This document shows positions 14,285-51,170 of a stretch of 64,000 bases of DNA, one piece after another (positions within the stretch are counted from its first letter, which is position 1; the number at the start of each line of letters is the position of its first letter). The position numbers and the translations under genes are program-made. The notes under the pieces are model-generated. The model was not told the DNA's origin and did not search any database. It saw only the letters and a list, made by a program, of their open reading frames with translations. The stretch covers positions 1 through 64,000 of the forward strand of contig JAAFIU010000004.1 of NCBI GenBank assembly GCA_013298805.1, in the 5' to 3' direction. The DNA comes from Cytophagales bacterium. Its GTDB lineage: Bacteria > Bacteroidota > Bacteroidia > Cytophagales > Spirosomataceae.

Positions 14285-17200
14285 ATGAGCAATTTGAATC
14301 AAACTAAATATAAATCTACCTGCTCATATTGTGGGGTTGGTTGTGGAGTTGAAATTACCAAAATTGACAACGGTAAAATTTACGTAGAAGGTGACAAAGA
14401 CCACCCTTCAAGTAAAGGAATGCTTTGTTCAAAAGGAATGAATCTGCATTATACCGTCAATGATAAGTCAGACAGATTGCTGTATCCAGAAATGCGTTTT
14501 AACCGAAATATGCCCCTGCAAAGAGTAAGTTGGGATACTGCTCTTGACCGAACAGCAGCAATTTTCAAAACTTTTATCCAAAAATATGGCCCAGATTCAG
14601 TAGGCTTTTATGTATCTGGACAATGTTCTACCGAAGAATATTATATCATTAATAAACTCATCAAAGGTTTTATTGGCTCAAACAATATTGATACTAACTC
14701 TCGTCTATGTATGTCATCGGCGGTAGTAGGTTATAAGCTTACTTTAGGCGAAGATTCTGTGCCTGTTTGTTATGACGATATTGAATTGGCGGATTGCTTT
14801 TTTGTAACGGGGGCAAATCCTGCTTGGTGTCACCCAATCATTTGGCGACGAGTGGAGGCTCACAAACAAGCAAATCCCAATGTTAAAATTATCGTCATCG
14901 ACCCAAGGCGTACTCAAACAGCATCACAAGCCGATTTACATTTACAACTCAATCCCGGAACTGACATCGTTCTGACCAATATTATCGGTAGAATTCTCAT
15001 TGAAAATAATTGGATTGACAACGATTTTATCACTAATCATACCGACGGTTTTGAAGCTTACCGTGAACAAGTTTTTACCCGAACGCTTTCCGAAGCTTCG
15101 GTAATCTGTGGTGTTGCAGAAAGCGATATTTTATTAGCTGCTCAATATATTCACGAGTCAAAAGGTTTTCTCTCGATGTGGACAATGGGCTTGAATCAGT
15201 CGGTAGTTGGGGTTAATAAAAACCTGTCACTCATTGATTTACATTTGATTACAGGTAGAATTGGCAAAGAAGGCAATGGTCCTTTTTCATTGACCGGACA
15301 ACCCAACGCCATGGGTGGACGTGAAGTAGGAGGTTTGGCAAATATGCTACCTGCTCATCGAGATTTATTGAATCCTGCTCACCGTGAGGAGGTTCAAGCG
15401 TTTTGGGGAGGCGCAAAAATTTCGGATAAACCGGGGTTTTCGGCAACCGAAATGTTCCAAGCCCTTGCCGATGGCAGAATGAAAGCCATTTGGATTGTCA
15501 CAACCAACCCAATGGTGAGCTTGCCAGATATTAATATGGTAGAAAAAGGACTCCAAAATGCCAAATTTGTGGTGGTTCAAGATATTTCTAACCGTTCAGA
15601 TACCGTAAAATATGCCGATGTGGTACTTCCTGCGGCAGCTTGGGCTGAAAAAGATTCAGTTTTTACGAATTCCGAAAGAAGAATTACTTATTTGCCGAAA
15701 GTAATTGATGCCCCAGGTGAAGCTTTAGACGATACCGAAATTATTAAAAGATTTGCTCATAAAATGGGCTTTGGAGAATCTTTTAACTATCAGAATAACA
15801 GTGAAATATACGACGAACATTGTCTTTCAACCAAAGGAACAAACATAAATATTACAGGGCTTAATTACGATGTTTTGAAAGAAAAACGTAGTGTTCAATG
15901 GCCATTTGTCGATGTTCGAGACTCGATGCTTGATGTTCGGAGTGGCGAAACCCCAAAATCAAATACTGAATCACAAATAACGAATCAAGAACCTCGAACA
16001 TCGAACCTCGAACATCGGGAATCGTATTTCGGCACAAGACGCTTGTTTACAGACAGCAAGTTCTACACCTTAAATCAAAGAGCTAAAATCCATGCCGTGC
16101 CTGATGAAAATTTATCAGAAAAATTAACGGAAGACTTTCCTCTAATTCTGACAACGGGTCGTATTCGTGACCAATGGCATACCATGACCAAAACGGGGAA
16201 GGTTAACAAATTGAATCAGCATATTGCCCAACCTTACGTTGAAATTCACCCGAATGATGCTCAAAAAAGAGGCATTGTTGATGGTCAAGTAATTGAAATT
16301 GAAAGTATTAGAGGGAGAAATCAAGTAAAGGCAAAAATTACCGAAGATATTAAAGAAGGCGTTTGTTTTATGCCAATGCACTTTGGAAAAATCTTAGGAA
16401 ATGCTTTTGGAAGAGCTAATAGTTTAACAAATACTTTGATAGATGCACGCTCAAAAGAGCCAGATTTTAAGTTCTCAGCCGTGCAAATACGTGCGTATGT
16501 AAAACCTGTGGAGAAAATTGTGATTATCGGGGCGGGTTCTGCGGGATTAGGATTCATTAATTCGTACCGAAATCTGAATAAAACTGATGAAATTCATGTG
16601 TTTTCAAAAGAGATTTATCCGTTTTATAACCGTGTTATGTTGCCTGATTATATTTCTGGAGCTCAAGAATGGGAACAATTGGTAAAATTACGGGAAGACC
16701 AATTTGCTGATGCTAATATTCAGGTTCACAAAGGTTTAGAGATTGTAAATATTGATAGAAAGAATAAAATTATCATTGATTCGGAAGGAAATGAACACAC
16801 TTACGACCGCCTGATTTTAGGAATGGGTTCACGGGCGTTTATGCCTCCGTCTGTTCCAAGAATTCCCGGGATTTTCAATATGCGCTCTCGATTAGATGCG
16901 GACAGTATGAAGCCGTTTATGAGTCAAGAAAATCCTCACGCTTTAATCGTTGGCGGTGGTTTATTAGGCTTAGAATTGGCGGCATCATTGCGTGAAGTCA
17001 ACGTAAAAGTGACCATTGTTCAGCGTATTAGCCGTTTTATGGATAGACAATTAGACCAGTTAGGCTCTGATTTACTCCATGAAGAAATTGTCAATTTAGG
17101 TATTGATGTTTATTATAATGATGAAGTTTCAGCCTTTTATGGAACGGATAAATTTGAAGGCGTTCGCTTAAAATCAGGACGAAAAATAGATGCTCAAATT

Positions 17201-17908
17201 GCGGTTTTTGCCATTGGAACGACACCAAATGTAGAAATTGCTCGTGCCGCAGGATTGGAAGTGAATCGTGGAGTGGTTGTAAATGATTATTTACAGACTT
17301 CCGATCCAGATATTTTTGCCGCAGGTGAAATTGCTCAATGGCGTGGCGAAATGTGGGGAATTACAGCCGCCGCCGAACAACAAGCCGACGTGATTGCCAA
17401 ATATATTGCAGGTGATTGGGCGAGTTATTACAAAGGCTCATTGTCGGTAAATATCATGAAAATTCAAGGAGTTCAATTATGCTCAATGGGAATTATCGAA
17501 ACGCCAAAGGTGCCTGATTATGAGGAGATTATCTTTATTGATAAAGCAAAAAGATATTATAAAAAATGTATCATTCACAATGATAAATTAGTTGGAGCAA
17601 CCCTGATTGGTGATAAATCGGAATTTTTAGAATTTAAAGATTTGATTGCCAACGGTATCGAATTGTCGGATAAGCGTTTAGAATTGTTAAGAAGTGGTAG
17701 AAAAGCTGACCCTGTAATGGGAAAATTGGTTTGTTCGTGCAATAACGTTGGCGAAGGTAATTTAAAATCTTGTATTTCAGGAGGTTGTAAAGATTTTACC
17801 GCTTTATGTGCTACCACAGGTGCAGGAACAGGTTGCGGAAGTTGTCGCCCAGAAGTAAGAGCAATTTTGGAAAAAGAGTTGTCAGAAGAATTAATAGAAG
17901 TCATGTAA
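14285..17908 (+). CDS. Assimilatory nitrate reductase: Mo-bisPGD catalytic module fused to NirB-like FAD/NAD and BFD-type [2Fe-2S] module
   Basis: YKSTCSYCGVGCGVEI N-terminal 4Fe-4S motif; GKVNKLNQHIAQPYVEIHPNDA molydopterin-binding region; C-terminal IIGAGSAGLGF...CSCNNVGEGNLKSCI..GTGCGSCRPEV. Confidence 0.93.
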   Translation: MSNLNQTKYKSTCSYCGVGCGVEITKIDNGKIYVEGDKDHPSSKGMLCSKGMNLHYTVNDKSDRLLYPEMRFNRNMPLQRVSWDTALDRTAAIFKTFIQKYGPDSVGFYVSGQCSTEEYYIINKLIKGFIGSNNIDTNSRLCMSSAVVGYKLTLGEDSVPVCYDDIELADCFFVTGANPAWCHPIIWRRVEAHKQANPNVKIIVIDPRRTQTASQADLHLQLNPGTDIVLTNIIGRILIENNWIDNDFITNHTDGFEAYREQVFTRTLSEASVICGVAESDILLAAQYIHESKGFLSMWTMGLNQSVVGVNKNLSLIDLHLITGRIGKEGNGPFSLTGQPNAMGGREVGGLANMLPAHRDLLNPAHREEVQAFWGGAKISDKPGFSATEMFQALADGRMKAIWIVTTNPMVSLPDINMVEKGLQNAKFVVVQDISNRSDTVKYADVVLPAAAWAEKDSVFTNSERRITYLPKVIDAPGEALDDTEIIKRFAHKMGFGESFNYQNNSEIYDEHCLSTKGTNINITGLNYDVLKEKRSVQWPFVDVRDSMLDVRSGETPKSNTESQITNQEPRTSNLEHRESYFGTRRLFTDSKFYTLNQRAKIHAVPDENLSEKLTEDFPLILTTGRIRDQWHTMTKTGKVNKLNQHIAQPYVEIHPNDAQKRGIVDGQVIEIESIRGRNQVKAKITEDIKEGVCFMPMHFGKILGNAFGRANSLTNTLIDARSKEPDFKFSAVQIRAYVKPVEKIVIIGAGSAGLGFINSYRNLNKTDEIHVFSKEIYPFYNRVMLPDYISGAQEWEQLVKLREDQFADANIQVHKGLEIVNIDRKNKIIIDSEGNEHTYDRLILGMGSRAFMPPSVPRIPGIFNMRSRLDADSMKPFMSQENPHALIVGGGLLGLELAASLREVNVKVTIVQRISRFMDRQLDQLGSDLLHEEIVNLGIDVYYNDEVSAFYGTDKFEGVRLKSGRKIDAQIAVFAIGTTPNVEIARAAGLEVNRGVVVNDYLQTSDPDIFAAGEIAQWRGEMWGITAAAEQQADVIAKYIAGDWASYYKGSLSVNIMKIQGVQLCSMGIIETPKVPDYEEIIFIDKAKRYYKKCIIHNDKLVGATLIGDKSEFLEFKDLIANGIELSDKRLELLRSGRKADPVMGKLVCSCNNVGEGNLKSCISGGCKDFTALCATTGAGTGCGSCRPEVRAILEKELSEELIEVM
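15910..16017. repeat. Palindromic element inside the nitrate reductase ORF
   Basis: cgatgttcgagactcgatgcttga... (15910-15940) is an imperfect reverse complement of gaacctcgaacatcgaacctcgaacatcg (15989-16017); length about 108 bp, ORF maintained. Confidence 0.75.
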
Positions 17909-49089: not shown

Positions 49090-49153
49090 ATTTTTTGATG
49101 TTCGATGTTTGTAATTCGATATTGGGATTTGTAGAAAGCGTATTGGAGTCCCA

Positions 49154-49186
49154 ACGGTCGCCGTCGTTCAAAATGACGGCGACCGT
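49154..49186. repeat. Hairpin with TTCAAAA apex
   Basis: acggtcgccgtcg-TTCAAAA-tgacggcgaccgt. Confidence 0.8.
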
Positions 49187-49353
49187 AAAAACGCATTCAG
49201 TCTTTAATGTAAAAAGTTATTGCAAAAATATTGATAACTAAAGCCTACTTTCTCAAGATACCACATATTGATTAGCCTATCAAAAAATCTTTGATTAAAT
49301 TTATTGGAAGAACTATTCGCTCAATCACAATTCATCAATTCGCTCAATTAAAT

Positions 49354-50658
49354 ATGTCTCCAACCACCCAAAAAACTGAAATACTTGCGGGCGTAAGCTC
49401 ATTTTTAGCCACGATGTACATTATCGTGGTCAATCCAGCGATACTTTCTCAGACGGGAATGCCTTTCCCTGCGGTGCTAACTGCTACCGTTTTGCTTTCG
49501 TTTTTTTGTAGTGTGATGATGGGTTTGTACGCCAAAAACCCGATTGTGGTAGCTCCTGGAATGGGTATGAATGCCTTTTTCACTTTCACTGCCGTCAAAG
49601 GAATGGGCATTAGTTATCAAGTGGCTTTGGGTGCTGTGTTTTGGGCGGGTGTTTTGTTCATGATTTTGTCCATTTTCAACGTCAGAACGCACATCGTCAA
49701 AGCTATTCCCAAACCTTTGCGTTTTGCCATTTCGGCAGGTATTGGCTTGTTTATCAGCTTAATAGGTTTTGAAAATGCTAAATTTATTGTAGCAAACCCT
49801 GCCACGTTAATTAGCATTGCCAATGTGAAAGACCCGATTGTTTTAACGTTTTTATTCGGTTTATTTCTGACTTCAATCCTGATAATTCGTAAAGTACAAG
49901 GCGGAATTATCATCGGAATTGTACTCACAACCTTACTCGCCATTCCGATTGGACGATATTGGGGAGATGCTTCAGCCGTAAATTTTGGACAAAAAGCATT
50001 AGTCAATTATCAAGGAATTTTTGCCAAACCTGATTTTAGTTTAATCGGACAATTAGACCTTTGGGGTTCATTGAAATTCTCTCTAATTCCTGTGGTTTTT
50101 GCCTTTGTTTTTACGGATTTGTTTGATAGTCTTTCAACCTTCGTTGGACTTGCCGAAGCGGCTTATTTATACGATGAAAACGGCGAACCTCGCAATGTTA
50201 ATCAATCTCTTTTGACCGATGCCATTGCCACTTTATTAGCGGGAATTTTAGGGACAAGTCCGGGAACGGCATACATAGAATCGGCGGTGGGAATTGAACA
50301 AGGCGGACGACATGGACTGACTGCCATCACGGCAGGAATTTTGTTTTTGCCCTTCATGTTTTTGTCGCCTTTATTGTCCATCATTCCAGCCATTGCTACT
50401 GCTCCTGCTTTGGTAATTGTGGGTGTTTTTATGGTAAAACCCATTACAAAAATCAATTGGTCGAAATTAGACGATGCCATTCCTGCCTTTTTAGCGATGA
50501 TTTTAATACCATTTTCGTACTCAATTACACAAGGAATTATTTGGGGATTTCTGTCTTGGACAATCCTAAAAGTTGGAACAGGAAAATATAAAGAAGTATC
50601 CACAACGCTATGGATTATTGATTTATTTGCGGTTGGGACTTTGTTTTGGGGGCATTAA
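49354..50658 (+). CDS. NCS2 family permease (AzgA/guanine-hypoxanthine-like)
   Basis: TEILAGVSSFLATMYIIVVNPAILSQTGMP; FVFTDLFDSLSTFVGLAE; start MSPTTQKTEI preferred over 49291. Confidence 0.92.
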   Translation: MSPTTQKTEILAGVSSFLATMYIIVVNPAILSQTGMPFPAVLTATVLLSFFCSVMMGLYAKNPIVVAPGMGMNAFFTFTAVKGMGISYQVALGAVFWAGVLFMILSIFNVRTHIVKAIPKPLRFAISAGIGLFISLIGFENAKFIVANPATLISIANVKDPIVLTFLFGLFLTSILIIRKVQGGIIIGIVLTTLLAIPIGRYWGDASAVNFGQKALVNYQGIFAKPDFSLIGQLDLWGSLKFSLIPVVFAFVFTDLFDSLSTFVGLAEAAYLYDENGEPRNVNQSLLTDAIATLLAGILGTSPGTAYIESAVGIEQGGRHGLTAITAGILFLPFMFLSPLLSIIPAIATAPALVIVGVFMVKPITKINWSKLDDAIPAFLAMILIPFSYSITQGIIWGFLSWTILKVGTGKYKEVSTTLWIIDLFAVGTLFWGH

Positions 50659-50710
50659 CGATTTTCGTTATTCGATGTTTGATGTACTCGCTTTTTTTGC
50701 TGTTTTGCCA

Positions 50711-50764
50711 TTGTCTGTGTCTCCACAGACGATAAATTGGAGTCGTCTGTGGAGACACAGACAA
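50711..50764. repeat. Palindromic element with perfect 22-bp arms
   Basis: ttgtctgtgtctccacagacga-taaattggag-tcgtctgtggagacacagacaa. Confidence 0.9.
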
Positions 50765-50771
50765 CGGCAGG

Positions 50772-50981
50772 AAAATCAATTGGTCGAAATTAGACGATGC
50801 CATTCCTGCCTTTTTAGCAATGATTTTAATACCATTTTCGTACTCAATTACACAAGGAATTATTTGGGGATTTTTGTCTTGGACAATCCTAAAAGTAGGA
50901 ACGGGGAAATATAAAGAAGTATCCACAACGCTATGGATTATTGATTTATTTGCGGTTGGGGCTTTGTTTTGGGGGCATTAA
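50772..50981 (+). pseudogene. Duplicated 3' end (about 210 bp) of the upstream NCS2 permease gene
   Basis: Near-identical to 50449-50658 including the stop codon, offset 323 bp, about 6 differences. Confidence 0.9.
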
Positions 50982-50985
50982 AATT

Positions 50986-51170
50986 GTCTGAACTGAGATT
51001 GATATGATTTAAAGATTTTAGGATTAAGTTTTTGCCATTGTCTGTGTCTCCACAGACGATAAATTGGAGTCGTCTTTTGCTGTTGTCTGTGGAGACACAG
51101 ACAACGGCAGGGAAATAGTTGTTCTTACTTAATCCTAAAATCTTTAAATCAAAAATATCATAGTTCAAAC
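50986..51170. repeat. GTCTGAACT-family palindrome carrying a nested second palindrome in its loop
   Basis: 43-bp arms 50986-51028 / 51128-51170; loop has a second copy of the ttgccattgtctgtgtctccacagacga element. Confidence 0.85.

Follow-up and report, generated by a model that had tools for sequence, protein, structure and literature searches.

Does the palindromic stretch that lies within the reading frame of a nitrate reductase gene of a Cytophagales bacterium represent an acquired repeat, and by what route could such DNA have become part of a protein? The gene lies in 64,000 nucleotides of contig JAAFIU010000004.1 (the window), from a draft genome of 461 contigs that is about 87% complete and whose nearest named relatives belong to Arcicella, family Spirosomataceae (A. 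aurantiaca, 91% in the best segment). The initial annotation had described a palindrome of about 108 bp with complementary arms inside a 1207-aa ORF; the ORF, the arms and the folding agree that it is real. The relevant features of the window are:

14285..17908, forward strand: host gene, ORF of 1207 aa, assigned from Pfam, NCBIfam and the nearest solved structures
15908..16025, forward strand: extra in-frame segment, residues 542 to about 580, with SVQWPF and YFGTRRLF on either side
15910..15938, forward strand: left arm of the palindrome, degenerate heptamers TCGATGT-TCGAGAC-TCGATGC-TTGATGT
15960..15987, forward strand: hairpin loop, two 14-bp (2 × 7) direct repeats, CAAATACTGAATCA and CAAATAACGAATCA
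15989..16017, forward strand: right arm of the palindrome, period-7 array GAACCTC-GAACATC-GAACCTC-GAACATC-G, which complements the left arm
49090..49122, forward strand: solitary heptamer half-arm, intergenic, TTTGATGTTCGATGTTTGTAATTCGATATT, followed by an unrelated palindrome at 49154-49186
50669..50690, forward strand: solitary heptamer half-arm, intergenic, followed by an unrelated palindrome at 50706-50769

In the host protein, about residues 8-735 form a molybdopterin nitrate reductase of the NasA type, and a C-terminal fusion adds NirB-like NAD(P)H reductase and [2Fe-2S] domains at about residues 744-1196. Pfam places the molybdopterin oxidoreductase domain at residues 64-492 and the molydopterin-dinucleotide binding domain at 620-729, with the NirB-like pyridine nucleotide reductase and BFD-like [2Fe-2S] domains downstream of both, and the extra segment falls between the oxidoreductase and dinucleotide binding domains. 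The nearest solved structures, both by sequence and by fold of the predicted model, are periplasmic nitrate reductases. In an AlphaFold2 model built from a 39-sequence alignment the mean pLDDT is 82, while the segment averages about 30 and residues 548-580 fall below 50, so that the segment is predicted to be disordered amid an otherwise confident fold. Its low pLDDT and its variability suggest a loop at the protein surface. With the reading frame intact, the segment would now be read as part of the protein, and it is probably useless for nitrate reduction.

The stretch at 15908-16017 is an imperfect palindrome built in frame from the heptamer TCGATGT and its complement ACATCGA. The 29-nt arms are 83% complementary across a spacer of 50 nt, an inner pair of 12 nt is 100% complementary, and the segment thus carries terminal inverted repeats of the kind found in MITEs. 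Tandem Repeats Finder reports the right arm as a period-7 tandem array, the hallmark of heptamer short tandem repeats, a class that includes the cyanobacterial STRR. The repeat consists of two opposed arrays of TCGATGT, a heptamer array folded on itself. When folded, the 118-nt stretch is more stable than 200 of 200 dinucleotide shuffles (z of −3.2 as DNA and −5.35 as RNA). The excess is weaker for the loop DNA taken exactly from QW to RLF, where z is only −1.67 and 6 of 100 gene windows are equally stable, and the window copy is for this reason regarded as a decayed, imperfect palindrome. With up to one mismatch, CGATGTTCGAG occurs four times in the window against 0.5 expected, and three of the four are inside the NasA segment. 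The similar strings noted previously at 49093-49115 and 50669-50690 are present, but they are single half-arms that adjoin other palindromes. Near the second of them, a permease-like gene (49291-50658) has its final 210 bp repeated in tandem at 50772-50981 with 97% identity; the strong palindrome at 50706-50769 separates the two copies and a second copy of it follows them at 51030-51116, so that the region 50449-50981 looks like a duplication around a hairpin.

Alignment with close relatives revealed no conserved segment of similar length. In A. aurantiaca (G001, locus L041) the loop reads QWPYTDNQTSGFGTRRLF and is 99 bp (33 codons) shorter than in the host; its sequence here is SVQWPYTDNQTSGFGTRRLF, and the DNA from the QW codons to RLF measures 45 nt against 144 in the window. 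The loops of other species are unrelated or have diverged differently. The VQWP...RLF junction, which was expected to span few residues, is short in most other sequences, and many relatives have only 3-8 loop residues. A tree of NasA, IspG and KdtA, built without gappy columns, places the host and A. aurantiaca as sisters with 100% support. On this tree the hairpin is patchy: it is found in the host and in the Arcicella genomes G005 and G007, the latter with a compound loop of heptamer hairpin plus another palindrome, and not in G001, G002, G004 and G006, while G003 has a different palindrome in its place. Because the hairpin openings of three Arcicella copies (VDVRDSMLDVRSG, VDARNSEFDVRSG and LDVRYSIFDVGSS) resemble each other, the pattern suggests one old insertion that was later lost or replaced elsewhere rather than many fresh events, with parallel gain as a possibility.

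The segment has relatives elsewhere in the genome: its 108 bp are unique when taken as a whole, but its arms match dozens of places. In the host, AACATCGAA occurs 173 times against 60 for the reversed control, and the corresponding figures for CGAACATCGAA are 32 and 4 in the host, 46 and 3 in G007 and 136 and 2 in G005. The other five Arcicella genomes hold 1-8 occurrences of CGAACATCGAA and have no TCGATGT hairpin in NasA. A genome with another genus label, G035, was picked as a test for its richness in CGAACATCGAA (90 against 1), and its NasA loop, FFDVRNSMLDVRSSQPKIENRTSNIG, proved to hold the same heptamer element. All four CGAACATCGAA-rich genomes thus carry the hairpin in NasA, and abundance of the sequence tracks its presence there. 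A census of 675 kb of host stretches, partly picked for holding matches so that its counts are not unbiased genome densities, called 22 opposed clusters, three of them spurious. These three (L136 at 7467, L137 at 5652 and L162 at 2573) were dropped on reading as chance matches or as lying at a gene start. Four clusters lie well within genes and in frame, namely in NasA, IspG, a group-1 glycosyltransferase and KdtA; the rest have no long spanning frame and are apparently intergenic. An intergenic hairpin between pyrF and rmlC is an old element common to the host, G001 and G007 and missing in G005, with flanks too diverged between species for a target duplication to be read.

In-frame insertion in unrelated protein-coding genes is therefore found within the host genome itself, where a half-array also lies in frame in an acyl-CoA dehydrogenase. 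In the IspG loop the heptamer differs by Arcicella species (AACTCAC, ACACTCA, ACCTCAA, ACCTCAT or TCGATGT). KdtA of the host is 69 bp longer than that of A. aurantiaca, and the extra DNA is flanked by a 12-bp direct repeat; since this repeat is itself heptamer sequence, it is equally well explained by slippage. Short TCGATGT half-arrays were also seen in frame in G005, in a nuclease-like protein (L205:1501-1532) and in a repeat-rich, surface-like protein (L191:1497-1514).

The NasA loop has received other repeats as well. Among 79 aligned NasA-type sequences from Cytophagales and other Bacteroidota, with insertions scored relative to the majority, 26 have an insertion of at least 6 aa at this loop, and the next-best place has 3. 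In the Arcicella genome G003 the loop is occupied by a nested, near-perfect palindrome of 126 bp (DNA fold z of −18). Its family is multicopy in that genome (about 40 places scored among 132 candidates); QueA, IspE and an exosortase contain it in frame, and one RND-efflux/outer-membrane-factor ORF does so three times over. This single ORF (L218:3-4436) combines an AcrB-type efflux pump with an outer-membrane efflux protein. In Larkinella humicola the loop holds a 75-bp palindrome, GCCCCTAAATCCCCTAAAGGGGACTT..., which is multicopy too (of 157 candidate places, about 40 were scored) and is found in frame in RibD and a lantibiotic dehydratase, and other Larkinella genomes have at the same point either the 75-bp element or a heptamer run of the TAACGAA type. 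Pfam envelopes span the insert uninterrupted in QueA, RibD and the glycosyltransferase. The loop copies of Emticicia and Spirosoma are also palindromic. Repeat origin is not general to long loops, however, because those of A. rosea, Mucilaginibacter and some Dyadobacter are neither palindromic nor repeat-like. Judged by these sequences, the NasA loop is a recurrent site at which repetitive DNA appears to be turned into part of a protein. The initial annotation understated the case: the loop is a hot spot for several unrelated palindromes across genera, other housekeeping genes are hit as well, and the element is a folded heptamer array.

A period of seven is well suited to passage through genes. 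Because 7 mod 3 = 1, an array gives one cyclic peptide in all three frames of a strand, and TCGATGT is free of stops on both strands (SMFDVRC and TSNIEHR), so that the whole hairpin fits a gene in any frame, provided its total length is a multiple of three. About half of all heptamers are stop-free on both strands, and for 87% at least one strand is open. The four IspG units that are open on one strand only (AACTCAC, ACACTCA, ACCTCAA and ACCTCAT) are all used in the open direction. Arrays of period 7 are also the commonest in the 675-kb, partly match-selected host sample (21 arrays; periods 5, 6 and 8-13 have 0-3) and again come first when 80 loci from other Bacteroidota are counted (14, other periods 0-8). 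Numerous heptamer units coexist within one genome, and paired arrays are formed by units other than TCGATGT too, as in an opposed pair at L132:16638-16708 of the host (TGATGAG... and ...CATCATTCATCATT).

Very likely, in our view, a non-autonomous palindromic repeat that is dispersed in Arcicella and in one or more neighbouring genera has left a copy in a tolerant NasA loop, where this copy either landed or grew. Seeding at new sites would occur by a REP- or MITE-like process through a putative enzyme, or by template switching in replication; the arrays would then lengthen and shorten in 7-nt steps by slippage, and selection would purge copies that shift the frame or fall in structured parts, leaving those in disordered loops. 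A single clean insertion accounts for the data less well than an insertion whose heptamers later slipped and turned over. A clean target-site duplication was not observed, and the NasA junctions are too diverged to read one. The earlier proposal of an acquired palindromic element that kept the frame is supported: neither of the two observations named as refuting it, a conserved segment of similar length in close relatives or a lack of matches elsewhere in the genome, was made. Its acquisition as one mobile unit is something that we can only infer. We regard it as rather unlikely that nothing arrived from elsewhere and that the segment grew locally, by heptamer slippage and template switching at a short imperfect palindrome. 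Such an origin would suit the dominance of period 7 among short tandem repeats in the host and other Bacteroidota, the different IspG heptamer in nearly every Arcicella species and the many units side by side in one genome. However, TCGATGT recurs across four genomes at numerous loci that are unrelated to each other, yet sister species have little of it, which independent local slippage would not predict. Nor are the elements that G003 and Larkinella have in this loop built as heptamer arrays; they are clearly dispersed families.

Dispersal by a RAYT transposase of a GTAG- or CGTC-tagged REP that is intragenic by chance appears improbable to us. Intragenic REPs are known (PMC3733652), and the host genome has 11 RAYT-like Y1 transposase matches, three of which, among those inspected, adjoin palindromes of their own. 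Nevertheless, in this genome (about 87% complete) the heptamer hairpin flanks none of the 11 Y1 loci, where the scan returned only one forward and one reverse single near-match, at two loci and inside other genes, so that no link of RAYT or IS200 transposases to the heptamer hairpins was found. By eye, the printed host copies and the window copy have no GTAG or CGTC tetranucleotide at the stem end, and the variable copy number of the unit is unlike a REP. At one of the Y1 loci (L130:1968-2079) the RAYT-like gene is directly followed by its own AACTTTCGGGAAGTT hairpin pair, likely a REP/RAYT pair unrelated to the heptamers. At another place in the host (L124:1-3201, contig C253) a Y1 (IS200-like) domain lies in frame within a 1259-aa DNA-methylase-like ORF and is followed by a PLVEPLVEPLV repeat. 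Least probable is a functional, selected NasA insertion, for example a protein-binding or regulatory tail, whose likeness to repeats is incidental. The long loop of many Cytophagales and the open, otherwise conserved host gene would be compatible with a function; yet sister species differ in loop length and sequence, A. aurantiaca is without the segment, many relatives manage with 3-8 residues, the segment is predicted to be disordered, and the inserted DNA matches non-coding repeats of its own genome.

The favoured reading, a dispersed palindromic repeat in a tolerant loop, has known counterparts. Rickettsia palindromic elements (RPE; Ogata et al. 2000, 2002; reviewed in PMC10969869) are palindromes about 100-150 bp long that fall into several families per genome, lie in frame within unrelated housekeeping genes and are presumed to be tolerated in surface loops. 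Palindromic repeats of roughly this size in several families per genome were likewise found here, and in-frame placement in unrelated housekeeping genes is shared. The parallel with RPE drawn by the initial annotation is thus apt as a likeness of description, and the Arcicella repeats may work in the same way. They differ in being built of heptamers, in belonging to a free-living host of a different phylum, and in that unrelated repeat families share one protein loop across species and genera. REPs are tetranucleotide-tagged hairpins of 20-40 bp, the GTAG class being associated with transposase genes; intragenic GTAG/CGTC REPs are short dispersed palindromes that add tens of residues to proteins of several Proteobacteria and others, and two Xanthomonas species have different REPs at about one place in recB, a precedent for the NasA hot spot (PMC3733652). 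The Arcicella hairpins, unlike REPs, show neither the tag nor a transposase association. TAACTGA heptamer direct repeats occur mainly between genes in Beggiatoaceae and a few Bacteroidetes (PMC4679880). They resemble the present repeats in their period-7 arrays, in several units per genome and in the other heptamer assemblages near them in some Bacteroidetes, whereas the Arcicella unit is TCGATGT and its arrays are opposed into hairpins, in frame within genes. MITEs in coding sequences are short, non-autonomous inverted repeats fused in frame (PMC10969869). The Arcicella repeat shares all of these properties, although neither a clean target-site duplication nor a parent transposase was found for it.

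Our searches of the open-access literature turned up neither coding palindromes of this kind in Bacteroidota nor a case in which unrelated repeat families share one loop across genera. In-frame palindromes are themselves known; what appears to be new is their presence in Bacteroidota, the heptamer build and the repeated colonisation of one loop. So far, coding palindromes have mostly been regarded as a peculiarity of Rickettsia with its reduced genomes; here they are found in free-living Bacteroidota with large genomes, with unrelated families at one loop in different genera. On a practical level, alignment, gene calling and structure modelling will all be misled by such segments in many Bacteroidota genomes. 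The period-7, stop-free design offers a simple, testable rule for which repeats are able to enter genes, and the insertions are replicate natural experiments on the conversion of selfish or slippage-born DNA into protein and on the positions that tolerate it. With somewhat less confidence, we propose that several unrelated palindromic and heptamer families keep colonising a few disordered loops of housekeeping enzymes across Bacteroidota and replacing one another, and that open-frame heptamers let such DNA through genes; the repeated colonisation of the same loops is shown here in Spirosomataceae and their kin. If this is true, each loop would be a running record of the repeat family active in its lineage.
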